In this document: piece after piece, positions 42,221 to 55,481 of the stretch
How the letters are laid out: every line of letters begins with the position of its first letter
How positions within the stretch are numbered: the first letter of the stretch is position 1
Assembly (NCBI RefSeq): GCF_000374845.1
Contig: NZ_KB895412.1
Span: 629,056 to 693,055, forward strand
DNA length: 64,000 nt
DNA from: Paenibacillus terrigena DSM 21567
GTDB taxonomy: Bacteria > Bacillota > Bacilli > Paenibacillales > Paenibacillaceae
Reading direction: 5' to 3'
Program-made: the position numbers and the translations under genes
Notes under the pieces: model-generated
Database searches by the model: none
What the model was told of the DNA's origin: nothing
Seen by the model: the letters and a program-made list of their open reading frames with translations, nothing else

Positions 42221-43033
42221 ATGATTATCAATCACAATCTTAACGCAATGAACGCACACCGCAACTTGCAAGGCAGCAACATCGCTCAAGGTAAATCCAG
42301 CGAGAAATTGTCTTCCGGTTACAAAGTAAACCGTGCAGCTGACGATGCAGCAGGTCTTTCGATCTCCGAAAAAATGCGTACACAAATCCGCTCTTTGAAC
42401 CAAGCACAAACTAACGTTCAAGATGGTATCTCTCTTGTACAAACAGCTGAGGGTGCAATGAACGAAGTATCCGATATGCTTTCTCGTATGAAAGAACTTT
42501 CTGTTAAAGCGGCAAACGGAACTTACAATGGTTCTGACTTGAATGCTATCGATGCAGAGTACAAAGCTTTGAGTTCTGCAATCGATAACGTTGCTACAAA
42601 GACAGAATTTAACGGAATTAAGTTGTTAAATAGCAGCAGTGCAAAAGTTCAAATCCAAATGGGAGATAAAAATATTGATACTATCAATTTCTCTCTACAA
42701 GACATTCAAATGACTGCACTTGGTATTAATGGTACAGATTTGAAATCCGCTTCAACTGCAAGTGCTGCGATGACTAAACTTGATGGAGCAATTGGCAAAA
42801 TTAACACTGCTCGTTCTGCATTTGGTGCGGTTCAAAACCAAATGGAACACACATTCAACAACTTAGGTGCAACAACAGAGAACTTGCAAGCAGCTGAATC
42901 CCGTATCCGTGACACTGATATGGCTAAAGAAATGATGAACTATACTAAATTGAACATTTTGCAACAAGCTTCCACTTCGATGCTTGCGCAAGCTAACCAA
43001 GCTCCACAAGGCGTTCTTCAATTGCTTCGTTAA
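42221..43033 (+). CDS. hag: flagellin
   Basis: Filament subunit, 270 residues; a short flagellin with little variable region. Conserved N-terminal domain (MIINHNLNAMNAHRNLQ, KLSSGYKVNRAADDAAGLSI) and C-terminal domain (AESRIRDTDMAKEMMNY, ASTSMLAQANQAPQGVLQLL). The central part (about 115-175) is Ser/Thr/Asn-rich, offering O-glycosylation sites. Codon bias resembles the S-layer gene, indicating high expression. Controlled by sigma-D promoter and CsrA sites upstream; strong terminator downstream. Confidence 0.98.
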   Translation: MIINHNLNAMNAHRNLQGSNIAQGKSSEKLSSGYKVNRAADDAAGLSISEKMRTQIRSLNQAQTNVQDGISLVQTAEGAMNEVSDMLSRMKELSVKAANGTYNGSDLNAIDAEYKALSSAIDNVATKTEFNGIKLLNSSSAKVQIQMGDKNIDTINFSLQDIQMTALGINGTDLKSASTASAAMTKLDGAIGKINTARSAFGAVQNQMEHTFNNLGATTENLQAAESRIRDTDMAKEMMNYTKLNILQQASTSMLAQANQAPQGVLQLLR

Positions 43034-43105: not shown

Positions 43106-44158
43106 ATGCTTGTTAGCGTATGTATGATTGTAAAAGATGAAGCATCCAATATTGTTAGAGCACTAAGTAGTATTCCGAGTTCCTACGAAAAAATTGTCCT
43201 AGATACAGGGTCAACAGATGATACAGTTTCTCTGGCAAAAAGCCAGGGTGCGAAAGTGTTTTTTCATCCATGGAATGATGATTTCGCAGAAGCTCGAAAT
43301 GTTGCTTGTTCTTATTGCACGGGGAAATATATTCTTGTTATGGATGCTGATGAGAAATTACCTGTTTATGTGGATAGAAATATTCAAGAATTCATCCAAG
43401 CTCATCCTAACCATCCAGGAGCTGTAGTCCTTGAAAATATGATTGATCAAGAAATTAATCGACATCGTATGGTGCGTTTTTTTCCTAATCATTCGAAGTA
43501 TCAATTCAAAGGTGCAGTACATGAGGGGCTTTTTCAAAATGAAGAGCCGGCTGATTATCTTCCTATGGATCTGACGATACAGCACTTTGGATACGAATCA
43601 ATCTATTATCTAGACAAAGGGAAAGCTGAGCGATATCTGCATCTCTATCAAAAGCATCTTGATCAATATCCCGACGATGGATATATGTTATATCAAACAG
43701 GGAAGCTATATTATAGTATGAAGCAGATAGAGACGGCAGAATATTATTTACAACGTGGATTGATGCAACATGAGCGTAATCGACTTTATTTTCCTGTCAT
43801 GCTAGTCATGTTAGGCTACGTGCTAAAAGAACAAGGGAAGTCACTAGAAGCAGAGCAATTATTGAATCCATATCTGACGTTATATCCCGAGTTTCCTGAT
43901 CTCCCCTTCTTGCTAGGCTTGCTTGCTATGGATACAGGAAAAATTGATTGTATCGAACGATTTTTCCTTTTGGCCCTAACAATTGGTGATTCCACTAAAT
44001 ACAGTTCTGTTTTGGGTACAGGTTCATTCAAGGCCTCATTTAATTTGGGCTTATTTAATGAACTGACAGGACAGAAGAGCAAGGCTAAGCAATATTATGA
44101 ATATAGCGCCAAACAAGGGTTTAAACCCGCACGAGATAGGCTAGTATTTTTAGGATAG
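43106..44158 (+). CDS. family 2 glycosyltransferase with TPR repeats, candidate flagellin glycosyltransferase
   Basis: 350 residues. GT-A domain at about 1-125 with SVCMIVKDEASNIVRAL, VLDTGSTDDT and the metal-binding LVMDADEKLP (DxD, about 76-85). TPR-like helices at about 170-345. It inverts or transfers a nucleotide sugar to an acceptor held by the TPR part. Inserted between hag and fliD, where Bacillus subtilis has no such gene; TPR-glycosyltransferases next to flagellin genes often glycosylate flagellin. ATG after TTAGGAGGAT, just past the hag terminator, so it may rely on readthrough. The target is inferred from position. Confidence 0.85.
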   Translation: MLVSVCMIVKDEASNIVRALSSIPSSYEKIVLDTGSTDDTVSLAKSQGAKVFFHPWNDDFAEARNVACSYCTGKYILVMDADEKLPVYVDRNIQEFIQAHPNHPGAVVLENMIDQEINRHRMVRFFPNHSKYQFKGAVHEGLFQNEEPADYLPMDLTIQHFGYESIYYLDKGKAERYLHLYQKHLDQYPDDGYMLYQTGKLYYSMKQIETAEYYLQRGLMQHERNRLYFPVMLVMLGYVLKEQGKSLEAEQLLNPYLTLYPEFPDLPFLLGLLAMDTGKIDCIERFFLLALTIGDSTKYSSVLGTGSFKASFNLGLFNELTGQKSKAKQYYEYSAKQGFKPARDRLVFLG

Positions 44159-44227: not shown

Positions 44228-45688
44228 ATGCCAATACGTATTACGGGAATGGGTTCTGGGCTAGATATTGATAAACTTGTTACGGACCTTATGAAAGCTG
44301 AGCGCATCCCATTAGATAAGTTGAAACAGAAGAAAACATTAGTCGGTTGGACAAGTGATTTGTATCGTGAGGTTAATACGAAATTAACATCATTAAGAAA
44401 AGCTGCAAACAATATCAGATTAACCGGTGATTGGCAAAACAGTAAAGCATCATCATCTAATGATAATGCTGTTAGTGCTACTGCCCAAGCAGGTGTCCCA
44501 CTTACAAGTCATAGTGTATTTGTCGAAAAGTTAGCTACAGGAGCAATGATTACAGGGGCTAAGCAGGCAGATAACTTCGATCCTTCAAAGGTAGTTATAG
44601 GTGGTAATGGTACGGAAAATTTAATTATTAACGGAAAACCCATAGAATATAAAGCATCAGACACACTTAAGAGTGTAATGGATAAAGTGAATGCATCAGA
44701 TGCCGGGGCGCGGATGTATTATGACGAAATAACAAAGCAAGTATCAATCGTTTCGAAAGATACAGGAGATTTGGCGAAGCTCGATTTAGCTGGCTCGACT
44801 GGTCCAATATTAGGGGTTGTAGGGATTTCTACTACTTTAGCAAATGGTCAGAATGCAAAAGTGATCTTTGACAAGGGCAAAAATAGCCCAACAGATCCAG
44901 GGATTACAATTTCTTCAGCTTCTAACACATTTACGGCTAATGGAATTACTTATAGTTTTAAAGAAGTGACCACAGAAGCAATAAAAATAAATGTTTCAGG
45001 CAACGATGATGGAATGATTAATCAGATTAAGGAGTTTGTAGATCAATATAATGCAACGATTGACTTATTAAATGAACGAACCAAAGAAAAAAAATCTAAG
45101 GGTTTTAATCCATTAACAGAAGATCAAAAGTCTGATATGAAAGAAACAGACATAAAAAACTGGGAGGAACAAGCAAAGAAAGGGCTATTAAGCAATGATG
45201 AGATTATTAAATCAACACTTAGAGATTTAAGATCAATAATAAATGGTGTTGTTTCCTCAAACCCAAAAGATTTTAAAACGCTGTCTGATATTGGAATTGA
45301 TACGATGCCATATAATGCAGCTTCGCCGAAGGATTCAGGTAAGTTAGTTATTGACGAATCGAAACTGCGCAAAAAAATATCAGAAGATGCCGGAAGTATT
45401 GTTGCGTTATTTACTGATCAAAACAATGGGATTGCTAGTAAAACTTATGATCAGGTAAATAAGTCCATTTCTGGATTGGTTGAAAAGGCTGGAGGGGTAG
45501 GATCTCCAGCTGAAAATCTTACAACATTTTTAGGAAAACAACTTACAGATATTAATAAACAAATTACTTCATTCGACGCAAAATTGGCGAGGAAAGAGGA
45601 ATATTATTATAAGATGTTCGCCGCAATGGATTCAGCAGTTTCGAAAAATAATTCACAATTAAATTGGCTCATGCAAAATGGTAGATAA
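44228..45688 (+). CDS. fliD: flagellar cap protein FliD (HAP2)
   Basis: 486 residues. N-terminal GMGSGLDIDKLVTDLMKAER (about 6-25) and C-terminal coiled coil (QLTDINKQITSFDAKLARKEEYYYKMF, about 438-464) are diagnostic of FliD. The middle domains are variable. It caps the filament and folds flagellin into it. ATG after GGGAGGT. Followed by flaG, fliS, fliT. AT-rich compared with flgK and flgL. Confidence 0.95.
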   Translation: MPIRITGMGSGLDIDKLVTDLMKAERIPLDKLKQKKTLVGWTSDLYREVNTKLTSLRKAANNIRLTGDWQNSKASSSNDNAVSATAQAGVPLTSHSVFVEKLATGAMITGAKQADNFDPSKVVIGGNGTENLIINGKPIEYKASDTLKSVMDKVNASDAGARMYYDEITKQVSIVSKDTGDLAKLDLAGSTGPILGVVGISTTLANGQNAKVIFDKGKNSPTDPGITISSASNTFTANGITYSFKEVTTEAIKINVSGNDDGMINQIKEFVDQYNATIDLLNERTKEKKSKGFNPLTEDQKSDMKETDIKNWEEQAKKGLLSNDEIIKSTLRDLRSIINGVVSSNPKDFKTLSDIGIDTMPYNAASPKDSGKLVIDESKLRKKISEDAGSIVALFTDQNNGIASKTYDQVNKSISGLVEKAGGVGSPAENLTTFLGKQLTDINKQITSFDAKLARKEEYYYKMFAAMDSAVSKNNSQLNWLMQNGR

Positions 45689-45700
45689 AAAGAGAGGATC

Positions 45701-46084
45701 GTGAATCAGTTGTTGGATAAATCGGTAATGAATTCTATGTCGGGCATCCGAGTTCAGTCAACCGTAGATATTAGCAACAATACTGAGGGCAAATCAAGTG
45801 TTGATAAAGTCATTACATCGACAGAATTATTACATAAGAAAGCAAATGAACTATCCATATCGGATGCAGCACTTCAAAAAGCCTTAGAAAAAGTTAATAA
45901 AGTACTTAAGGGAATCGAAACCCGTCTAGAATATAGTGTACACAAAACCACTGGCGATATTATGGTAAAAGTTATCAACGAAGATACGAAAGAGGTTATT
46001 CGAGAAGTTCCACCTGAAAAGATCATCGATCTTGTCGTGAAGTTACAGGAATTATCCGGGTTAATTATAGACGAAAAGAGGTAA
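45701..46084 (+). CDS. flaG: FlaG protein
   Basis: 127 residues. A disordered N-terminus and the conserved C-terminal FlaG domain (LEYSVHKTTGDIMVKVINED, VIREVPPEKIIDLVVKL, about 79-118). Its role is in filament length control in other bacteria. GTG 45701 after AGAGAGGA. In Bacillus subtilis the homologue yvyC precedes fliD; here it follows. Confidence 0.9.
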   Translation: MNQLLDKSVMNSMSGIRVQSTVDISNNTEGKSSVDKVITSTELLHKKANELSISDAALQKALEKVNKVLKGIETRLEYSVHKTTGDIMVKVINEDTKEVIREVPPEKIIDLVVKLQELSGLIIDEKR

Positions 46085-46090
46085 TGACCC

Positions 46091-46480
46091 TTGATCAATC
46101 ATCAAGCGCAAGAAACGTATTTACGTATGCAAGTTCAGACAGCTGCACCATGGGAGTTAACAACTCTTTTGTTTAGCGGGTGTATAAAGTTCATGAAGCA
46201 AGCAATGGATGCGATTAATCGCAAAGATTATGAAGCGAAAAATCTATATATTAAGAAATCCGTTGATATTATTGATGAGCTTACGATTACACTAAATCGA
46301 GATTATGATATTGCTCATCAATTGGCCTCATTATATACGTATATGAAGGATCAGTTATTTCAAGCCAATATTAAGAATCATGTAGATTTCATCCAAGAAT
46401 GTGTTGTAATGCTCACAGAATTAAGAGATACATGGGTCCAAGCGATGAAGACACTGCATACATCAAGGGTGAATGCATGA
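46091..46480 (+). CDS. fliS: flagellin export chaperone FliS
   Basis: 129 residues. NHQAQETYLRMQVQTAAPWELTTLLFSG opening region and helical body (MKQAMDAINRKDYEAKN, ADIIDELTITLNRDYDIA-like stretch) are typical FliS. Binds the flagellin C-terminus in the cytosol. TTG 46091; ribosome site AGAGGTAATGA overlaps the flaG end. Confidence 0.93.
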   Translation: MINHQAQETYLRMQVQTAAPWELTTLLFSGCIKFMKQAMDAINRKDYEAKNLYIKKSVDIIDELTITLNRDYDIAHQLASLYTYMKDQLFQANIKNHVDFIQECVVMLTELRDTWVQAMKTLHTSRVNA

Positions 46481-46836
46481 GTGTAGTAATCGATCAAGAA
46501 AAAATATTTCGTTTGAAGGATATCTCCATTGAGTTATATTCACTCGATTTAGAAGATGGAGAAAATCTGGAAATGCTCTCTCTTCTGCAGGAAGAGCAAG
46601 AGAAGTTGAGAGAAGAATTAACGGATTGGATGCCGAGATTCATGAAAGATGAAAATTTAAAAGAGGTTATTCAAGAATGCATTTTCCTTGAACAGCGCCT
46701 AGGCGAAAAGTTGATAAACCAGCGAGCGCAGGCACAAGACCAGATACTACGCATGCAAGCTGGTACACGCTCTAAAAATGCATACAGTAGCGTATTTCAT
46801 CAAACGGAAGGTTATTTTGTCGATAAGAAGAAATAG
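46477..46836 (+). CDS. fliT: FliT-like flagellar chaperone
   Basis: 119 residues, helical (LEMLSLLQEEQEKLREELTDW, about 32-52; VIQECIFLEQRLGEKL, about 64-79). Size, helicity and position after fliS match FliT, the FliD chaperone, although the family is weakly conserved. ATG 46477 overlaps the fliS stop (ATGA) after AAGGGTGA. Confidence 0.75.
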   Translation: MSVVIDQEKIFRLKDISIELYSLDLEDGENLEMLSLLQEEQEKLREELTDWMPRFMKDENLKEVIQECIFLEQRLGEKLINQRAQAQDQILRMQAGTRSKNAYSSVFHQTEGYFVDKKK

Positions 46837-46840
46837 AGAG

Positions 46841-46890
46841 AAAGGCAATTCAATGTGACCAATGCTCGGTCGCAAGAATTGCCTTTTTTT
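46841..46890 (+). terminator. terminator between convergent fliT and minus-strand glycosyltransferase
   Basis: AAAGGCAATTC (46841-46851) pairs with GAATTGCCTTT (from 46876), with TTTTTTT following on the + strand. It overlaps the end of the minus-strand gene and may work in both directions. Confidence 0.85.
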
Positions 46891-48835
46891 ATGCAAGCAA
46901 GTGGCGAATGATCGGGACACCTTTATGCTCAGGTAAGTGATCCATGAATAGCCGTTTATATATTTGTTTTTCGGAAGGATCATCCAGGAGAGAGAGTGTT
47001 TGAATGTACAATGGGATATTCTTCGGTGACAACTCGATAGCTTTTTTTAGAAATTCTAACGCTCCGGTTGAGTCACCCTGATTTAAATATAATTGAGCAA
47101 TATTTTCATACCCTTGTGCAGATAATTCATCTTTTTGTATTAGAGTATCATAGTAATCTAGGGCTAGCTCCAAATGACCTTGACTATAGAAATAATTACC
47201 TAGTGAATTTGCCAATACTTTAAACTGATCCGGGAGTAGCTGAATGATATAATCATATGCTTCGTAATAGCCATATTTAAATAGATCCGCCAGTAATTCC
47301 CCGATCTGCTGAAGATCTTCTTGGGAATTAAATTTGATTTGATCGCTGTTTCCATCGATCATTTTGCGGCATGCATCTATTAGGGATGAATCTACAGATT
47401 TTGACGAATCTAAGAGATGCTTATCATGCCATGCCATTGATGCAAGTGCCACAAGATGATTATTATACTTTGATGATATATCACTCAGACTATTGCTGGA
47501 CATTAATTCAATAAAGCCTTTTTTATTATTGGTTAGGATCGCATATTGAATGTGATATGTCGATTCATTGAGGATGCCCGATGCCATGCACTTCTCATAA
47601 TAGTATTTACTTAACGCGGAATGAGCAGCCAATAACGACGCCTGAAACAATCTTAGTTGATTGGCTGGTTCATTCTCAGGCAGTAGCTTGTCGAGAAATC
47701 CTATGATGGTTTCCGGACCATCCGTTTTTGAAAGTAGTTGAATTAATAAGTAGAGGTGCGTAAGTTCATCACATTTTAACTCTATTAATTTGATGAGATC
47801 AGAAACTGTTTCTTGGTAATTATGCATACGTATATGAAGAGATAACATTTTTTTGTACGGTTTGATGCTCCCGTAGGCTGGAGTAAGCAGCCAGTAGTTA
47901 TTGCCGTCCTTAGAGTTTTGATTGGCAAGAGAAATACAATGCTTATAGGTCTGCAGTGCATTTTCATACATACCAAAATGTTCGTAAAAGTTTCCTTTTA
48001 AATAATGAAAATCTACGTATTGTGGCCAACGTGTAAGGCATTCTTCGTTCATTTGGATAGCTTCTTTAAAATAACCTAGTAGTGCAGAAATAGATATGAT
48101 TTTAAATTTACAATGAATGATAAAAGCTTGATTGTAGGTCCTTTTCGTATCGGCTCGTTTGTAATAATAGAGCGCTTTTTTATAATCCTGTAGACCATCG
48201 TATTCATTTCCAAGTGTGTAGTAATCATATTCCTCAAATTTTTTCTGCTTCCCCATTGCAGTGAAGATAGACAGATTTCGTTCTGATTTATTTTTGGCTT
48301 CTTTCGTCTCTTTGGTATATCCCGTATGAAAAATACTGAATGAGTATCGAGGTGTAGGGATCTCGCCATGCGCGTAAATGACCTGCTCATGAATCGGGCG
48401 GTAGAAGTACACATCTGGATGATTATTAATGATTCTGGCTGCAAAGGATTCTACATAATTCCCTGATTTGGACTGATTCAAAATATTGAAGATCGGTAAA
48501 ATGAATGATTTCGGTTTAGTGTGATCTTCCGACATTAACATTTCCCGTAATTCTTCGTGTTTGTCAGGCTGCACGTATTCGTCAGCATCTAAAATAAGAA
48601 TCCATTTACTCGTTGCTTTTCTAATCGCCTCGTTTTTTGCTGCAGAAAAGTCATTAACCCACGTGAAATCAAAGACCTTATCCGTAAATTCTAAAGCAAT
48701 TTCCTTTGTCGAATCCATTGATCCTGTATCTACAACGATGATTTCATCGACCAATCCTTGTACACTCTCTAAACAACGACGAATAACTTTTTCTTCGTCT
48801 CTTGCAATCATACATAGTGATAGTAGTTTATTCAT
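46889..48835 (-). CDS. family 2 glycosyltransferase with long TPR array
   Basis: 648 residues, the only clear minus-strand gene. GT-A domain at about 1-190 with LSLCMIARDEEKVIRRCLES, VDTGSMDSTKE and LILDADEYVQ (DxD, about 80-89). About 205-648 is a long series of TPR-like helix pairs (for example LGNEYDGLQDYKKALYYYKRA and LYLNQGDSTGALEFLKKAIEL). Ribosome site AGGAGGAAGG precedes the ATG. A perfect sigma-D -10 (GCCGATAT) with TAAT 16 bases upstream lies before it on the minus strand. Related in build to the protein encoded at 43106. Flagellin or another surface protein is the likely acceptor (inference). Confidence 0.85.
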   Translation of the reverse strand: MNKLLSLCMIARDEEKVIRRCLESVQGLVDEIIVVDTGSMDSTKEIALEFTDKVFDFTWVNDFSAAKNEAIRKATSKWILILDADEYVQPDKHEELREMLMSEDHTKPKSFILPIFNILNQSKSGNYVESFAARIINNHPDVYFYRPIHEQVIYAHGEIPTPRYSFSIFHTGYTKETKEAKNKSERNLSIFTAMGKQKKFEEYDYYTLGNEYDGLQDYKKALYYYKRADTKRTYNQAFIIHCKFKIISISALLGYFKEAIQMNEECLTRWPQYVDFHYLKGNFYEHFGMYENALQTYKHCISLANQNSKDGNNYWLLTPAYGSIKPYKKMLSLHIRMHNYQETVSDLIKLIELKCDELTHLYLLIQLLSKTDGPETIIGFLDKLLPENEPANQLRLFQASLLAAHSALSKYYYEKCMASGILNESTYHIQYAILTNNKKGFIELMSSNSLSDISSKYNNHLVALASMAWHDKHLLDSSKSVDSSLIDACRKMIDGNSDQIKFNSQEDLQQIGELLADLFKYGYYEAYDYIIQLLPDQFKVLANSLGNYFYSQGHLELALDYYDTLIQKDELSAQGYENIAQLYLNQGDSTGALEFLKKAIELSPKNIPLYIQTLSLLDDPSEKQIYKRLFMDHLPEHKGVPIIRHLLA

Positions 48836-48871
48836 GCCTTCCTCCTGTTGAAAAACATTTACTTATACAGT

Positions 48872-48899
48872 ATATCGGCCGTTATCGCTTGGCAAATTA
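48872..48899 (-). promoter_or_regulatory. putative sigma-D promoter of the minus-strand glycosyltransferase
   Basis: Read on the minus strand: TAAT (48899-48896), a 16-base spacer and a perfect GCCGATAT (48879-48872). It lies 36 bases before the ATG. Confidence 0.7.
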
Positions 48900-48943
48900 A
48901 TAAATTTTAATAGCTTATCTATGAATTTAGGGTATGAAATGGC

Positions 48944-48971
48944 TAAGTTTTATGTAGAATTATGTCGATAT
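48944..48971 (+). promoter_or_regulatory. putative sigma-D promoter of the glycan gene pair at 49013
   Basis: TAAG (48944-48947), a 16-base spacer and GTCGATAT (48964-48971; 7 of 8), 41 bases before the ATG. Confidence 0.6.
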
Positions 48972-49012
48972 AACTACTATATTATCTTCACCATGAATTT
49001 GGGGGAATCATT

Positions 49013-51115
49013 ATGAAGACTAGCATCGTCATTGCTACGTTTAATAAACTGGAATACAACCAGCTTTGTATTGAAAGCATTCGTAAGTATACGAGCCATC
49101 TCGATTACGAGATTATTGTTGTTGATAATAATTCCACGGATGGAACCGTGGGTTGGCTAAGAGAACAAGAAGATATTGTCACTGTATATAACACAGAGAA
49201 TATGGGTTTCCCTAGAGCATGTAATCAAGGAATAGAATTGTCTAGTGGAGATGCTATATTACTTCTTAATAACGACACCATCGTTACAACTAATTGGCTT
49301 GATAATATGATTATTGCGCTTACAAGTGACGAATTGATTGGAGCAGTGGGTACTGTTACGAATAATTGCTCTAATCTGCAGGATATAGCAGTCAATTATG
49401 ATAATCTTGAACAAATGCAAGATTTTGCACAAAAGTTCAACAACTCTAGCTCCTCATTATGGGAGGAACGCCCTAGATTAATTGGGTATAATCTTTTAAT
49501 TAAGAAATCAGTTCTTGAGATAATTGGAGATTTAGATGAACGATTTTCACCGGGTAATTATGAGGATGATGATCTCTGTCTAAGAATCAGATTAGCAGGA
49601 TATCGATTGATGCTTTGTAAGGATACATTTATCCATCATTTTGGTAGTACATCTTTTAAAGAAAATGCCGATAAATATGATGCTTTACTCAGTACGAATC
49701 AACAGAAATTTGAAGATAAGTGGGGTTTTTCACCGTTATTCCTAGCCAATTTAAACTTGAATGCGATTAATCAGTTGCAGTTAGACCCAAATCGACATAT
49801 ACGAATATTAGAAGTTGGGTGTAAACTGGGGACTAATTTAATGGAGATGCGTAATCGCTATCCAAAAGCTGAGTTATATGGCATAGAGCTAGATGAAACT
49901 GCTGCATCAGTTTCATCAATGATTGCTAAGATAAATGATTTTTCTTTGGATGGAATTCTATTTGATGTGATATTAATTAGTGAAAACGTACTTTCCTGGG
50001 TAAATGTAGAGGATGGCTTGATATTATATTCCGAATATTTAACTAATGATGGACAACTGGTCGTTTCGATACCCAATGTATCATCTTATTCAGTAGTACA
50101 TGATTTATTACGAGGTCACATTAATCGTGATTGGATCAAAACAATTCAATTGGCAGAGATTGAACCTCTTTTTAAGCGCATAGGATTTAAACAGACGAAA
50201 ATGACAGGAATAATAGACTCGCTGGATAATGTTGGGCGGAAGACCATTGATCAAATTGCAGAGATTCATGGTAAACAAAGTTCAATTCTATTAGAAACGT
50301 CGTGCTATCTTATTAAGGCATCGAAAAAAAGTATAGAAGAAGAGATAAAGTCGACGATTAATGCACTTATACTAAAAGAGTCTTTACCATACTATACCAA
50401 GAAGCTTGTTGAATATGATTCAGATCAAGTAATTGAGATTATCCAGTCATCTAATAATGATCAGATCATTGAAATACTCAATTATTTATCGGCATATATC
50501 ATTGAATACGCTACTGTAAAAGATTCATTACCCTACTTGAATTATGCATTTGAATTAAAACCAAATGTACATTCTACTTTGATGAACCTGGGATCAGCTA
50601 TGCATTTACTTGGTAACAACAATTTAGCGCTCGAATGGCTAAGTTTGATAGAGAATAAAGATCAGTATGTCTTGAACTGGATCGAGAAGATTCAACAGGA
50701 AGAGAAGATTTTATCGTATGGGAAATATAGATTAAAGTTCTTACTGCGTCGGATTGAGAATGATATGCTTGAAACAGAATCGATGCAAGAGATCATTCAG
50801 ATTATGACAAACAATACAATAACATTAGATCAAATTTACCAAGTAATAGATAACGATATTATTGAAAAGGTAATATTACTCAATAAACTGGCAGCGTTTT
50901 GCTATGAAAATCAGTTAGTCCAATGGACAATCCCGTTATTAGAAAAAGCCTTTGAGATAGATCAAACGCATCAGGTGACATTGACTAATTTGGGTGTAGT
51001 CATGTTTAATATAGGGGATTTTGAAATGGCTTTCCATTTGCTTATGCAATTGGATGAGAAAACTGATGATATTCTTCAGATGATTGCGTGTGCTAAGGAG
51101 GAGACCCATTGTTAG
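49013..51115 (+). CDS. glycosyltransferase-methyltransferase-TPR fusion protein
   Basis: 700 residues with three parts. Family 2 glycosyltransferase at about 1-235 (SIVIATFNKLEYNQLCIESI, VVDNNSTDGTV, LLLNNDTIV and a late YEDDDLCLRIRLAG acidic motif). A SAM-dependent-methyltransferase-like domain at about 255-425 (RILEVGCKLGTNLMEM, then LYGIELDE). TPR-like helices at about 450-700 (NLGVVMFNIGDFEMAFHLL). It could add and methylate a sugar on one acceptor. ATG after GGGGGA, preceded by a sigma-D-like promoter. The next gene starts inside its last 7 bases. Strongly AT-rich. Confidence 0.82.
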   Translation: MKTSIVIATFNKLEYNQLCIESIRKYTSHLDYEIIVVDNNSTDGTVGWLREQEDIVTVYNTENMGFPRACNQGIELSSGDAILLLNNDTIVTTNWLDNMIIALTSDELIGAVGTVTNNCSNLQDIAVNYDNLEQMQDFAQKFNNSSSSLWEERPRLIGYNLLIKKSVLEIIGDLDERFSPGNYEDDDLCLRIRLAGYRLMLCKDTFIHHFGSTSFKENADKYDALLSTNQQKFEDKWGFSPLFLANLNLNAINQLQLDPNRHIRILEVGCKLGTNLMEMRNRYPKAELYGIELDETAASVSSMIAKINDFSLDGILFDVILISENVLSWVNVEDGLILYSEYLTNDGQLVVSIPNVSSYSVVHDLLRGHINRDWIKTIQLAEIEPLFKRIGFKQTKMTGIIDSLDNVGRKTIDQIAEIHGKQSSILLETSCYLIKASKKSIEEEIKSTINALILKESLPYYTKKLVEYDSDQVIEIIQSSNNDQIIEILNYLSAYIIEYATVKDSLPYLNYAFELKPNVHSTLMNLGSAMHLLGNNNLALEWLSLIENKDQYVLNWIEKIQQEEKILSYGKYRLKFLLRRIENDMLETESMQEIIQIMTNNTITLDQIYQVIDNDIIEKVILLNKLAAFCYENQLVQWTIPLLEKAFEIDQTHQVTLTNLGVVMFNIGDFEMAFHLLMQLDEKTDDILQMIACAKEETHC

Positions 51116-53208
51116 ACGAACATAAGGTATGTTTTATCACGTGTGTCAACGATTTTTCGTTATATGAAGAGTCGACTTGTTATATTCAGGGATTAAATGT
51201 CCCAGAGGGAATGACTGTTGAGATTCTATCTGTTACTGATGCTAAGAGTATGACATCAGGGTATAACGAGGCTATACGAAAAACCGATGCAAAATATAAA
51301 GTTTACTTGCATCAAGACGTATTTATTATTAATAAAAATTTTATTAGTGATATTCTTGAGGTGTTTAGTAAAAATATTAATTTAGGTTTATTAGGGGTTG
51401 TAGGTTCTAAGACGATGCCCTCTAACGGTATTTGGTGGGACTCGTCACAGAAAGTGGGATCTGTGTTTGATAGTCACACAGGATCGATTGAAAAGTTGGA
51501 GTTTGAAACTCCTATTAATGAATACGAAAAAGTTATCGCATTAGATGGGTTGATTTTAATTACACAGTATGATGTAGCATGGAGAGAAGATCTATTTGAT
51601 GGCTGGCATTGTTATGATGTATCTCAGTGCATAGAATTTATTAGAGTTGGCTATGAAAACGGAGTAATAAGGCAAGAAAAGCCATGGTGTATTCATGATT
51701 GCGGTTATGTAAGTGTAAAGAACTATGAAAATGATAGAAAAAAATACTTAGAAGAGTATACTGATATTGAGGAATCATACATTGAGAATATACATTCAAT
51801 AGATGCTGTTTTAGCGCGTTTATACACAAACCATCAATATGATTCTATCGTAAAAATAACAAGTAATATATTAGATACATCTGGAGCGACTCCTGGGATT
51901 TTTATTTATCGGGCTAATTCGATGAATAATATGGGAAGATTTGATGAAGCCGTTCTATGCTTGGAACAATCTTTGATAATTTATCCTAATCATTACGAAC
52001 TAACCTTAGCTTTAGCTAATGTGCTTGAAATGAATCATAATTCTAAAAGAGCAATTTACTATTTAAGGAAACTAATAGCGGTGGGATATACCCAATTAGC
52101 TAATAGAGTAAAAATGTTGCAAAAAGAAGCAGGTTATCCAAAATTATTACTTTGGAGTAAACATACTACATCCGGATGTAATGTAAGAGCATTATTCAGT
52201 AGATTACCCGACAGAATTAGAGAGCAATGTCAAGTTGATTTCTATGCTGAAGAAGTAGTTCCCCAAAATTATATGGAGTATGATGTAATATTTACTGCAC
52301 ATGGCAATCCATTAGCCAATAATTTGCAATACGCTATTGAATTATGGCATGGTTTTCCAATTAAAGGGTTGGGAAATATGGAAAAAAGACCCCACTTTAG
52401 TCCTTTTTTAATAAGTAATAATTGGAAGAAAGTCGATACAGTAATCTCTTATTCTACTATGTTTAATACGATATTTAATGGTTGCTTAGGATTGTATGAG
52501 CATCAATATTATATCGCAGGTGCCCCAAGAAATGATTATTTGTTTGAATCTAGTGGAAAAAAACATTTAGAAAGAATTTTAGATTCAGATTTATCAAGTT
52601 ATAAAATAATAATGTATGCTCCTACCTTTAGAAAAGCTTCTGTCGATAATATACGAAACGACGGTGAACGGTTAACAGATAATATTTTTGGATTCAATCA
52701 CTTTAATGAAAATCAATTCTCTGATTTTTTAATAGAACATAATATTATTCTATTAATAAAACTACATCCTGTTGAAGAAGAAATGTTGAAAGAAAAAATA
52801 AGTGAGCGAAACATGAAAAACACAATTTTAATGACAGATCAAATACTCAATAACAACGGAATTGATTTTTACGAGTTTATGAACTGTGTAGATGTGTTAA
52901 TTACAGACTATTCATCATTGTATTTTGATTACTTATTATTAAACAGACCTATTATTTTTGTTCCAACTGATATTGAAGAATATACTGATCGACGAGGGTT
53001 TTTAATGGAGCCCTATGAAGAGTGGACACCTGGTGACAAAGTATTTTCACAAGATGACTTAGAATATTCGATTTTAGATGGATTACGGGACAATAAAAGA
53101 TATGAGAGAGAAAGAAATCAGATATGTAATTATATTAATAAATATAATGATGGAGAAAGCTCTAAAAGAGTATGGGATTTTGTTGAGAGAATCTTATGCA
53201 TTGAATGA
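51109..53208 (+). CDS. glycosyltransferase-TPR-glycerophosphotransferase fusion protein
   Basis: 699 residues. About 1-210: GT-A-like domain of the StrF/family-2 type (FITCVNDFSLYEEST, SGYNEAI, YLHQDVFI). About 225-335: TPR helices (RANSMNNMGRFDEAVLCLEQ). About 346-699: CDP-glycerol glycerophosphotransferase domain (TagB/TagF family) with ELWHGFPIKG, YAPTFRK, LIKLHPVEE and ITDYSSLYFDYLLLNRPI. The last domain transfers glycerol-phosphate from CDP-glycerol, and tagD nearby makes that donor. TTG 51109 after AAGGAGG, overlapping the previous stop. Very AT-rich (row 52561-52620 has 11 G/C in 60), suggesting transfer from elsewhere. No membrane helix, unlike some wall teichoic enzymes, which fits a cytosolic protein acceptor. 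Confidence 0.83.
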   Translation: MLDEHKVCFITCVNDFSLYEESTCYIQGLNVPEGMTVEILSVTDAKSMTSGYNEAIRKTDAKYKVYLHQDVFIINKNFISDILEVFSKNINLGLLGVVGSKTMPSNGIWWDSSQKVGSVFDSHTGSIEKLEFETPINEYEKVIALDGLILITQYDVAWREDLFDGWHCYDVSQCIEFIRVGYENGVIRQEKPWCIHDCGYVSVKNYENDRKKYLEEYTDIEESYIENIHSIDAVLARLYTNHQYDSIVKITSNILDTSGATPGIFIYRANSMNNMGRFDEAVLCLEQSLIIYPNHYELTLALANVLEMNHNSKRAIYYLRKLIAVGYTQLANRVKMLQKEAGYPKLLLWSKHTTSGCNVRALFSRLPDRIREQCQVDFYAEEVVPQNYMEYDVIFTAHGNPLANNLQYAIELWHGFPIKGLGNMEKRPHFSPFLISNNWKKVDTVISYSTMFNTIFNGCLGLYEHQYYIAGAPRNDYLFESSGKKHLERILDSDLSSYKIIMYAPTFRKASVDNIRNDGERLTDNIFGFNHFNENQFSDFLIEHNIILLIKLHPVEEEMLKEKISERNMKNTILMTDQILNNNGIDFYEFMNCVDVLITDYSSLYFDYLLLNRPIIFVPTDIEEYTDRRGFLMEPYEEWTPGDKVFSQDDLEYSILDGLRDNKRYERERNQICNYINKYNDGESSKRVWDFVERILCIE

Positions 53209-53254
53209 CTAACGTATGAAAAAAATTTTGTATTTTAGAAAGTAGTGAATATTT

Positions 53255-53633
53255 ATGTGTGGTATTTTATTCTCGGGCACAGGAAATAAAGGGAAAGAAA
53301 ACTTTTTGAATGCATTAAAATTAATAGTACATAGGGGACCTGATGCACCACTTGGATTTTATCAACATGAGGATTATATGCTAGGACATAATAGGTTAAG
53401 TATAATAGATATAAATGAACGATCTAATCAGCCATTTTTCTCAAAGGACAGAAGATACATTATTGTATATAATGGTGAGATTTATAATTTTAGAGAGCTA
53501 GCGAAACAACATTCAATTAATATGGTTACTGAATCCGATACTGAACTTTTGCTTGAGATGTATATTAAGTTTGGATCGCGGATGTTAAACTGGTTGAATG
53601 GGATGTTTAGTTTTGTGATTTTAGATACATATA
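53255..53633 (+). pseudogene. 5' remnant of an asparagine-synthase (glutamine-hydrolysing) gene
   Basis: About 126 residues of the class II glutamine amidotransferase domain: the catalytic MCGILFSG start, IVHRGPDAP, GHNRLSIIDI, FVIVYNGEIYN-like YIIVYNGEIYNF and DTELLLEMY. It then breaks off after GMFSFVILDTYK. Full enzymes run to about 600 residues with an ATP-binding synthetase domain, which is missing. The open frame continues for 22 unrelated codons to 53701 because it reads out of phase into the next fragment. AsnB-like amidotransferases occur in surface-glycan loci, where they amidate sugars or acids. The truncated protein could at most hydrolyse glutamine. Confidence 0.85.
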
Positions 53634-53879
53634 AAAGTTGGAGGATTAGGAGCATGCACTCTTATCTCAAGATATGCATTAGAAAAAGGTGTTTCTTTTA
53701 AAGAAATTCCGAACCTATCCTTCTGGGGAGAAGATAGACATTTCTGTATTAGAGCTGCTGCTATAGGGTTTAAAATGTACGTAGATACACATTTGCCTGC
53801 TCTTCATTTATATAGAATGGAAGATTTGGCGAAAGTAACGGAATATAAGATTAAGGGGAAAGAATTGAAAGGAATTTAA
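53634..53879 (+). pseudogene. 3' remnant of a family 2 glycosyltransferase gene
   Basis: Read in a frame different from the asnB remnant, 53634-53879 encodes about 81 residues: KVGGLGACTLISRYALEKGV, FKEIPNLSFWGEDRHFCIRA, then FKMYVDTHLPALHLYR. This WGEDRHFCIRA/VDTH pattern is the C-terminal end of bacterial family 2 glycosyltransferases. A stop codon lies just upstream in this frame and there is no start with a ribosome site. It is fused directly to the asnB remnant, so a deletion has removed the end of asnB and the start of this gene. Confidence 0.75.
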
Positions 53880-54290
53880 GTGATGAAGAAAATAATAACT
53901 TACGGTACCTTCGATTTATTGCATTACGGTCATATTCAGTTACTGAAACGTGCAAAAGCATTAGGGGATTACTTAATAGTTGGGTTATCATCTGATGAAT
54001 TCAACAAATTAAAAGGAAAGAAGTCAGTTCTATCGTATCAAGAAAGAGTGGATCTATTATCTGCCATTAAATATATTGATGAGATCATTCCAGAAAATAA
54101 TTGGGAGCAAAAATCAAGAGATGTTATTAATAACAATGTATCTATTTTTGTAATGGGAGATGATTGGAAAGGGCAGTTTGATGATTTGAGTGAATACTGT
54201 GATGTTCTGTACTTAGAAAGAACTCCAGAAATATCATCATCTAGTATTAAGCAAAATATCTTAAATAAAGAAAAGTTAATAAAAATGTAG
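53880..54290 (+). CDS. tagD: glycerol-3-phosphate cytidylyltransferase
   Basis: Makes CDP-glycerol from CTP and glycerol-3-phosphate. 136 residues, close to the 129 of TagD. TYGTFDLLHYGH (residues 7-18) holds the HxGH nucleotidyltransferase motif; RVDLLSAIKYIDEII and ERTPEISSSSIK match the family signature. Start at GTG 53880 or ATG 53883 after AAAGGA; the choice is open. It sits at the end of the island, after the glycerophosphotransferase fusion that would use its product. AT-rich like that gene. Confidence 0.93.
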   Translation: MMKKIITYGTFDLLHYGHIQLLKRAKALGDYLIVGLSSDEFNKLKGKKSVLSYQERVDLLSAIKYIDEIIPENNWEQKSRDVINNNVSIFVMGDDWKGQFDDLSEYCDVLYLERTPEISSSSIKQNILNKEKLIKM

Positions 54291-54484: not shown

Positions 54485-54682
54485 ATGCAAGGTAAAGTGA
54501 AATGGTTTAACGCAGAAAAAGGTTATGGTTTTATCGAAACTGCTGACGGTGGGGACGTATTCGTACATTTCTCCGCGATCCAATCTGAAGGCTTCAAAAC
54601 TTTAGAAGAAGGTCAATCCGTTGAGTTCGACATCGTTGAAGGTGCTCGCGGACCACAAGCAGCTAACGTAATTAAATTATAA
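54485..54682 (+). CDS. cold-shock protein (CspA/CspB family)
   Basis: 65-residue single cold-shock domain that binds RNA and single-stranded DNA. KGYGFIE (RNP1, about 13-19) and DVFVHFSAI (RNP2, about 25-33) are intact. ATG after GAAGGGA. Monocistronic, with a strong promoter and a terminator. It lies between the glycan island and hpf. Confidence 0.96.
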
Positions 54683-54747
54683 TCATACCGGCAGTGATGC
54701 CGAGCTACATAAGGTTCGATGGTTAAATCGATAGTTTAGCTAGAGAA

Positions 54748-54777
54748 AGCCCTAGACAAGTTCTAGGGTTTTTTGTT
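54748..54777 (+). terminator. rho-independent terminator after the cold-shock gene
   Basis: CCCTAGA (54750-54756) pairs with TCTAGGG (54762-54768), followed by TTTTTTG. Confidence 0.9.
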
Positions 54778-54877
54778 GCTTCTAGAACTTTTGCAACACT
54801 TCTGTAATAGTTCTGAACAGTCTTTGACAAGCACCCATCAAAGGAAACAACTACGCCACTTTCATTGTAAAGGAATT

Positions 54878-54906
54878 TTGAAGTATGCCCAGAGCTGTGT
54901 TATAAT
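54878..54906 (+). promoter_or_regulatory. sigma-A promoter of hpf
   Basis: TTGAAG (54878-54883), a 17-base spacer and TATAAT (54901-54906) with extended -10 TGT, 27 bases before the ATG. Confidence 0.8.
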
Positions 54907-54932
54907 AGAGCTAAGCAAAGGAGGAGTGCCCT

Positions 54933-55481
54933 ATGAAATACAGCATTCGAGGCCAACATATCCAAGTGACAGATGCTTTAAGAGAGTATGTAGAGAAAAA
55001 GCTAAGTAGATTGGAAAAGTATTTTGAAGTGCCGCCTACCTCTGAGGTACATGTTACATTGAGCGTAATCAAGGACAAACATAGCATTGAGGTTTCGATT
55101 CCTCTACCAGGCTTGATGCTCCGCGCCGAAGATAAGACAGATGACATGTATGCTTCGATTGACGCTGTGATCGATAAGTTAGAGCGTCAAATTCGTAAAC
55201 ACAAAACTAAATTAAACCGCAGATTCCGTCAAGAGGGCAGCTTGAAGTCCCTAATCGTTGATGGAGGCTCCACAGCAGTTGCACTAGAGGATGAAGAGGA
55301 TACTCTCGAGCTGGTGCGTACGAAGCGTTTTACATTGAAACCGATGGATGTGGAAGAAGCGATCTTGCAAATGAACATGGTGGGACATAACTTCTTCGTC
55401 TTCTCCAATATGGACACGAATCAAGTGAATGTCGTGTACCGTCGCAATGATGGCAAATACGGCTTGATCGAGCAGGATTAA
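54933..55481 (+). CDS. hpf: long-form ribosome hibernation promoting factor
   Basis: 182 residues. The N-terminal HPF/RaiA domain (YSIRGQHIQVTDALREYVEKK, SIDAVIDKLERQIRKHK) blocks the ribosomal decoding site. The C-terminal dimer domain (about 125-182, KRFTLKPMDVEEAILQM, VVYRRNDGKYGLIE) pairs ribosomes into 100S particles. ATG after AAAGGAGGAG. Its position before secA and prfB matches Bacillus subtilis. Confidence 0.97.
   Translation: MKYSIRGQHIQVTDALREYVEKKLSRLEKYFEVPPTSEVHVTLSVIKDKHSIEVSIPLPGLMLRAEDKTDDMYASIDAVIDKLERQIRKHKTKLNRRFRQEGSLKSLIVDGGSTAVALEDEEDTLELVRTKRFTLKPMDVEEAILQMNMVGHNFFVFSNMDTNQVNVVYRRNDGKYGLIEQD

Follow-up and report, generated by a model that had tools for sequence, protein, structure and literature searches.

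We analyzed a 64,000-nucleotide stretch of the Paenibacillus terrigena DSM 21567 genome (6.36 Mb; C1:629056-693055), referred to below as the window, in which three genes between flagellar genes and csp-hpf appear to serve the transfer of glycerol phosphate onto a flagellar protein. They encode a family 2 glycosyltransferase (GT2) with methyltransferase-like and tetratricopeptide repeat (TPR)-like parts, a fusion of a glycosyltransferase (GT), a TPR part and a PF04464 glycerophosphotransferase (GPT), and TagD. Gene order is flgN, flgK, flgL, fliW, hag, a SunS-like GT2-TPR gene (43106), fliD, flaG, fliS, fliT, another SunS-like GT2-TPR gene on the minus strand (46889-48835), the cluster, csp, hpf and secA, and the glycosyltransferases sit within the hag-fliD-fliS locus, as is required of a flagellin glycosylation island. 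An earlier reading made from the letters alone (the sequence-only reading) had placed the cluster between fliT and hpf, correctly (csp, hpf and secA follow it), and the three genes it described are indeed present with open, complete reading frames (49013-51115, 700 aa; 51109-53208, 699 aa; 53880-54290, 136 aa) and the domains it named, those for methyltransferase and TPR being weak. It had overlooked an asnB-type piece and a glycosyltransferase scrap ahead of tagD, as well as two more SunS-like GT2-TPR genes in the island. Below, G000 denotes this genome, other G numbers further genomes and L numbers loci.

The fusion gene has a TTG start, overlaps the preceding gene by 7 bases and is preceded by AAGGAGG just upstream. 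Its product matches PF13712 (Glyco_tranf_2_5) at 284.4 bits (cut-off 27) and PF04464 (Glyphos_transf) at 193.0 bits (cut-off 22.1), the match to TPR_2 being weak (23.0 bits, cut-off 27). Residues 406-693 match the structures of TagF and TarL, and the WHG and KLHP motifs align with His444 and His584 of TagF (3l7i alignment), which we take to be its two active-site histidines. TarL chain 8va1 itself lacks WHG in the same alignment, and the histidines of both motifs are invariant across 13 aligned flagellar GPTs. Hydrophobicity of the fusion peaks at 1.18 over 19-residue stretches, and no strongly hydrophobic stretch was found in either the fusion or the GT-methyltransferase protein. TagD exceeds the equivalog cut-off of TIGR01518 (172.9 bits versus 165.4), carries the motifs HYGH and RTPEISSSSIK, and is predicted with high confidence to make CDP-glycerol.

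The relation of TagD to flagellar genes was assessed across 392 genomes of the order with a general TagD family that was not built from these loci. Twenty genes in 18 genomes exceeded the cut-off, and 14 of them (14 genomes, five genera) lie 0.7-23.3 kb from hpf; the remaining six (G000:C5, G007, G122, G236, G323 and G313:6280307) are located on other contigs or at least tens of kb away. Random placement would put ~0.16 of 20 TagD genes within 25 kb of hpf, the nominal binomial probability of 1e-25 being far too small because the genomes share descent. Each of the 14 hpf-near genes has a GPT and hag, fliD, fliS or flaG in its neighborhood, with the GPT adjacent in 13 cases and one scrap away in the window. 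PF04464 is rare, with 17 genes in 10 of 147 relatives, and four of these genes (G000, G009, G054 and G025) lie no more than 14 kb from hpf. Eleven of the 14 genomes have no TagD other than that of the island, and all their PF04464 matches (E 1e-5) fall inside it. The exceptions are G000 and G313, which harbor a second pair elsewhere, and G384, with a weak 34-bit PF04464 match on another contig. The second GPT-tagD pair of G000 is embedded in a polysaccharide cluster of the Wzx/Wzy type, alongside EpsG, CpsB/CapC, a sugar-phosphate transferase and a flippase-like protein. This genome accordingly holds its own contrast: one system is lipid-linked and has membrane genes, the flagellar one has none.

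A wider search over named genomes used a profile from an alignment of flagellar GPTs and returned 45 loci, a count that is biased by the origin of the profile, unlike that of TagD. A core flagellar gene was present in the retrieved stretch of 25 loci, 18 of these with TagD; L178 is counted as flagellar by a 29% flagellin match only, and without it the numbers are 24 of 45 and 17. Paenibacillus sp. OK003 and P. rhizosphaerae share the order hag-GT-fusion-TagD-flaG-fliD-fliS, Anoxybacillus tengchongensis has hag-GT-GPT-TagD-GT-flaG-fliD-fliS, and in Sporolactobacillus (Pfam on L156) hag is followed by a single protein with GT2, TPR and PF04464. P. phytohabitans is a further named relative that carries the module. 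Further GT-GPT fusions near hag carry a GT2 in Bacillus sp. FJAT-49711 and a GT1 in two Paenibacillus. Pfam analysis of nine GPT proteins identified PF04464 in all nine; two also have GT2, two a group-1 GT, and four an Anp1-like match under the cut-off. Matches to the halves of the P. terrigena fusion occur in 24 of the 147 relatives (E 1e-20) and 66 of the 392 genomes (E 1e-40), and a scan of the genome contigs with the fusion alone gave four pattern matches and no relative. With regard to the co-occurrence that the sequence-only reading had suggested looking for, GPT-TagD pairs lie beside hag, fliD, fliS or flaG in other genomes, the fusion as a whole being seen only here. That the system might be unique to this genome was rejected, as its halves and GPT-TagD modules occur in relatives.

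Phylogenies were computed for GPT and TagD, leaving out 14 and 12 loci, respectively, that repeat other loci, plus short or identical pieces. Among 69 GPT domains the flagellar label is clustered (9 changes versus 23.3 when shuffled) and does not form one clade; the window GPT is placed together with three fusions from flagellar loci (SH-aLRT 87), at the end of a branch of 0.94 compared with a median of 0.4. The window TagD belongs to an all-flagellar set of 18, apart from the polysaccharide TagD of the same genome (SH-aLRT 86).

Three further loci relate to TagD or GPT. At G078:C24:83041-83334, a stretch resembling TagD lies about 0.7 kb away from hpf and is interrupted by two stops; it is probably what remains of a lost module. 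In L069 (16364-19251, G054), the island GPT has a polysaccharide dehydratase and a Maf-like protein as neighbors, and TagD was absent from the stretches read. Paenibacillus also has another conserved cluster (L139 3067-19900 in G370, also L140-L143 and L191), in which GT2-like genes accompany genes for a TagD-like protein of 261-279 aa, a protein of 445-453 aa whose N-terminal domain is TagD-like, and a PF04464 protein of ~455 aa; only the G370 copy was seen beside hpf.

The sequence-only reading had further relied on sigma-D-like promoters. Such sites are present in the 177-base gap, on the plus strand at 48944-48971 (TAAG-16-GTCGATAT, its -10 box 49 bases upstream of the gene at 49013) and on the minus strand at 48899-48872 (TAAT-16-GCCGATAT), toward the divergent GT2-TPR gene, and hag is preceded by the best-scoring site of its strand (42119). 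By score alone the 48944 site is not exceptional, with 7-11 equally good sites per strand in simulated 64-kb sequence; a like -10 box nevertheless precedes the GT-methyltransferase gene in all three species of the genus (the window, G001 and G002). In relatives, sigma-D scores upstream of the divergent GT2-TPR gene give no support, 14 of 16 being 8.5 or less. In the 160 nt upstream of stand-alone GPT-tagD operons of relatives (fused GPTs L127, L128 and L144 excluded), the -10 box CCGATA(A/T) or GTCGATAT was found 28-64 bases before the operon in 11 of 11 cases, compared with 148 of 4000 random stretches (3.7%), 21 of 149 other genes in these loci (14%) and 13 of 14 hag genes. The pattern was fixed after hag promoter sites had been inspected, and -35 matches are poor in several GPT operons. 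Sigma-70 and terminator scans, not used as evidence, gave promoter-like sites no commoner than in shuffles and 12 terminator-like sites versus 6.3 expected (sd 2.3).

The remaining features of the locus are collected in Table 1, and Rfam and transfer RNA scans of the window returned no matches.

Table 1. Features of the flagellar island and its flanks; positions refer to the window.
Feature	Position (strand)	Product size	Assignment	Supporting matches
hag	42221..43033 (+)	270 aa	Flagellin, presumed acceptor	Flagellin_N 135.3 bits; Flagellin_C 105.3 bits
SunS-like GT2-TPR gene	43106..44158 (+)		Candidate initiating flagellin glycosyltransferase, between hag and fliD	Glycos_transf_2 67.0 bits; TPR
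fliD, flaG, fliS, fliT	44228..46836 (+)		Conserved flagellar block 5' of the island	FliD and FliS by Pfam/NCBIfam; flaG and fliT by position and sequence
SunS-like GT2-TPR gene	46889..48835 (-)	648 aa	Second candidate initiating glycosyltransferase, divergent from the cluster	Glycos_transf_2 77.7 bits; TPR_1 59.5 bits
Divergent intergenic region	48836..49012 (177 bases)		One sigma-D-like promoter per direction	
GT2 - methyltransferase-like - TPR-like gene	49013..51115 (+)	700 aa	Probable glycan-extending glycosyltransferase	
GT-TPR-GPT fusion gene	51109..53208 (+)	699 aa	PF13712 GT (residues 8-217), TPR (about 266-324), PF04464 glycerophosphotransferase (407-693)	
asnB-type gene piece	53255..53701 (+)		Glutaminase domain without the synthetase domain	GATase_6 88.7 bits; asn_synth_AEB positions 1-132 of 517 only
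Glycosyltransferase scrap	53643..53876 (+)	78 aa	Out of frame	Resembles GT half of Saccharibacillus GT-GPT fusion
tagD	53880..54290 (+), start 53880 or 53883	136 aa	CTP:glycerol-3-phosphate cytidylyltransferase	
csp and hpf	54485..55481 (+)		Downstream edge of the island	

Hag contains 44 Ser and Thr residues, 12 of them within residues 130-190. Against S_glycosyl_SunS, the product of 43106..44158 scores 76.8 bits, far under the cut-off of 350, and relatives of the GT2-TPR gene at 46889..48835 come after fliT in many islands. The cluster had been described as inserted, which fits the fusion and tagD: in G001 and G002, the two genomes of the same genus, neither these nor any PF04464 gene was found at the thresholds used. 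For the GT-methyltransferase gene the description fails, as both genomes retain it in the same slot together with the GT2-TPR gene, its GT part being 75% and 71% identical. G+C content is 29-36% in the cluster versus 43-50% from hpf onward; since the upstream hag-fliT region is likewise AT-rich (34-42%), composition delimits only the downstream edge.

The first protein of the cluster matches Glycos_transf_2 at 85.0 bits (cut-off 23.3), while Methyltransf_23 (25.3 bits, cut-off 27) and TPR_17 (19.7 bits, cut-off 24.4) stay under their cut-offs. Its S-adenosylmethionine (SAM) motif is altered to GCKLG, compared with GxGxG in five of six aligned relatives. The methylated glycan of the sequence-only reading is thus weakly backed; methylation was dropped as a firm part of the interpretation, and we hold it with low confidence. 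In the same island slot of G144 (L067 8147-10111), a carbamoyltransferase is flanked by a PF13712 GT and the GT-methyltransferase gene. In several relatives (L040-L044 and others), GT2-TPR, GT-methyltransferase and PF13712 GT genes are also found in twos or threes away from flagellar genes, where they perhaps serve another surface protein.

Between the fusion and tagD, the asnB piece, for which no relative was found among the loci compared with it, runs into the glycosyltransferase scrap (53255-53876), a degenerate join within the operon. With L128, the GT half of an 886-aa GT-GPT fusion from the G336 flagellar island, the scrap shares 64% identity, and with L095 69% over 62 aa; the former match indicates that the module was reshuffled here.

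Taken from gene content and arrangement, the following route is proposed. One or both SunS-like GT2-TPR proteins (43106-44158 and/or 46889-48835) would put the first sugar on Ser/Thr of Hag, and one or more further sugars would come from the GT2-methyltransferase-like protein and from the fusion, through its PF13712 domain. TagD would convert CTP and glycerol 3-phosphate to CDP-glycerol, from which the PF04464 domain of the fusion would transfer glycerol 3-phosphate to the glycan, each group adding 154 Da, with the TPR part helping to hold flagellin. Glycosylation would take place in the cytoplasm by soluble enzymes and the finished subunit would be exported by the flagellar apparatus, so that neither a lipid carrier nor a flippase would be needed; transcription would be by sigma-D along with hag. 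A single glycerol phosphate cap is more likely than a short chain, as most islands lack a separate pair of primase and polymerase. Directly observed are the genes and their domains, the retained active-site histidines, the link to flagellar loci in several genera and the promoter boxes; we infer the acceptor, the identity of the sugars, the order of steps, a single group instead of a chain, and activity in this strain. The CDP-glycerol-dependent modification of a flagellar protein, the core of the sequence-only reading, is well supported by genomic association (TagD and GPT near hpf and hag, exclusivity, -10 boxes and trees), and transfer of glycerol phosphate to such a protein is very likely; that the cluster is part of a cytoplasmic flagellin glycosylation system whose glycan is capped with glycerol phosphate from CDP-glycerol is likely. 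In Paenibacillus alvei, a member of the same family, flagella reportedly require two glycosyltransferase genes that lie downstream of hag, and the flagellin glycan is said to be a trisaccharide of one hexose and two N-acetylhexosamines (HexNAc), with no phosphate reported.

Several observations weigh against this interpretation. The complete GT-TPR-GPT arrangement was not found in any other genome of the 147 relatives or the 392 of the order, and no TagD was seen at the island PF04464 genes of G054 and G025 or with one fusion (G320). Of the 45 GPT loci, 20 have no flagellar gene nearby, several being on short contigs, and eight of these 20 have TagD. The two promoter-like sites of the 177-base gap are not significant on their own, no good sigma-D site of their own was found for the fused GPTs L127, L128 and L144, and tree support is moderate. 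The asnB and glycosyltransferase scraps within the operon, together with the altered methyltransferase motif, suggest that the local system may be partly decayed. It is therefore possible, though unlikely, that the CDP-glycerol part works on flagellin in relatives and is wholly or partly dead here, an eroding cassette in a fast-changing island, to which the long end branch of the window GPT would also point; the fusion and TagD, however, are full-length, open, above cut-offs and keep their active-site motifs.

PF04464 and TagD are classically teichoic-acid enzymes, and with a second GPT-tagD pair in a polysaccharide cluster of the same genome, the island genes might modify a polymer of the wall or capsule with glycerol phosphate, their flagellar position being accidental. 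We regard this as improbable, mainly because of the 11 of 14 genomes in which TagD and PF04464 are confined to the island and the contrast within G000, where such a polymer is already served by the second pair. The proximity of 14 of 20 TagD genes to hpf and the sigma-D boxes argue in the same direction; moreover, the lipid-linked priming or export genes that accompany TagB/TagF in wall teichoic acid synthesis were absent among ten flagellar-island proteins scanned, TagO, TagA and TagGH not having been searched for genome-wide. The acceptor could instead of flagellin be a different secreted protein of the flagellum or cell surface (FliD, FlaG, a hook or S-layer protein), as the related GT trios away from flagellar genes would allow. 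Little probability is given to this, since TagD-GPT pairs adjoin hag, fliD and fliS, hag is the abundant sigma-D product, and the TPR part of Caulobacter FlmG binds flagellin (PMC7591256). Least of all do we expect the transferase to use another CDP-linked alcohol or a phospho-amino acid, fed by a TagD relative with changed substrate. The precedent would be TagF-like CD0244 of the Clostridioides difficile Type A system, proposed to use CDP-threonine (PMC10714395); the island TagD is over its equivalog cut-off, and neither a CD0242-like nucleotidyltransferase nor a CD0241-like phosphatase was present among the ten proteins scanned.

The statement that no such system had been described was too strong. 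Flagellin glycosyltransferases are paired with TagF-like phosphotransferases in C. difficile (CD0240/CD0244) and in Pseudomonas aeruginosa FgtA (PMC10714395), and the proposed system would work like these two. As here, the Type A locus (CD0240-CD0244) lies beside the flagellin gene and encodes a core-sugar glycosyltransferase, a TagF-like transferase adding a phosphodiester-linked group from a proposed CDP donor, and a methyltransferase (PMC10714395); it differs in attaching an N-methylthreonine group with phosphatase-like CD0241 and nucleotidyltransferase CD0242, whereas here TagD would supply CDP-glycerol and glycosyltransferase and transferase form one protein. FgtA (PA1091), likened by description, combines a glycosyltransferase and a CD0244-like phosphotransferase in one protein of a flagellin glycosylation locus (PMC10714395), but comes without TagD and, in that account, with a phosphodiester-linked group of unknown identity. 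In enterobacterial flag-2 systems, TagD and TagB were already proposed to build the flagellin glycan: variable region 1 (TagD, TagB, LtaS) contains TagD in 235 strains and the CDP-glycerol phosphotransferase TagB in 65 (PMC6993521). These are secondary flagella of Gram-negatives, unlike the flgN-flgK-flgL-fliW-hag-fliD block here, and the available text describes no GT-TPR-GPT fusion, sigma-D link or chemistry. The flagellin glycosylation island of the Gram-positive Geobacillus thermoglucosidans DSM 2542 also includes tagD, paired there with pgs and read as phospholipid modification, a GPT reading not being found in the part consulted (PMC5109656). Caulobacter FlmG and Maf-1 are soluble flagellin glycosyltransferases with a flagellin-binding TPR part (PMC7591256; Maf-1 as cited in PMC13317340), but transfer nonulosonic acids and have no phosphotransferase, as far as these sources go. 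The flag-2 proposal and the Geobacillus tagD show that this kind of system was already known, though chemically unproven; the present analysis adds the TagD count across the order, the confinement of TagD and PF04464 to the island, the connection with sigma-D and the fusions. Searches in the accessible part of the open PMC literature brought up no account of flagellin bearing glycerol phosphate.

Beyond this strain, we lean towards the view that sigma-D-controlled, CDP-glycerol-fed flagellin glycerophosphorylation is widespread in Bacillota and is the sole user of CDP-glycerol in most Paenibacillales that have it in the flagellar island, with teichoic-type chemistry shifted from wall to flagellum and GPT domains shuffled onto many flagellin glycosyltransferases. 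The so far untested idea of teichoic-like groups on flagellin (PMC6993521) becomes a sharp mass prediction of +154 Da for named strains, and the fused enzymes suggest the order of steps. If true, this would explain the retention of tagD in bacteria without other recognizable PF04464 genes, and the filaments of many Bacillota would carry a dense, negatively charged coat of glycerol phosphate that would affect filament bundling, adhesion, phage attachment and host recognition.

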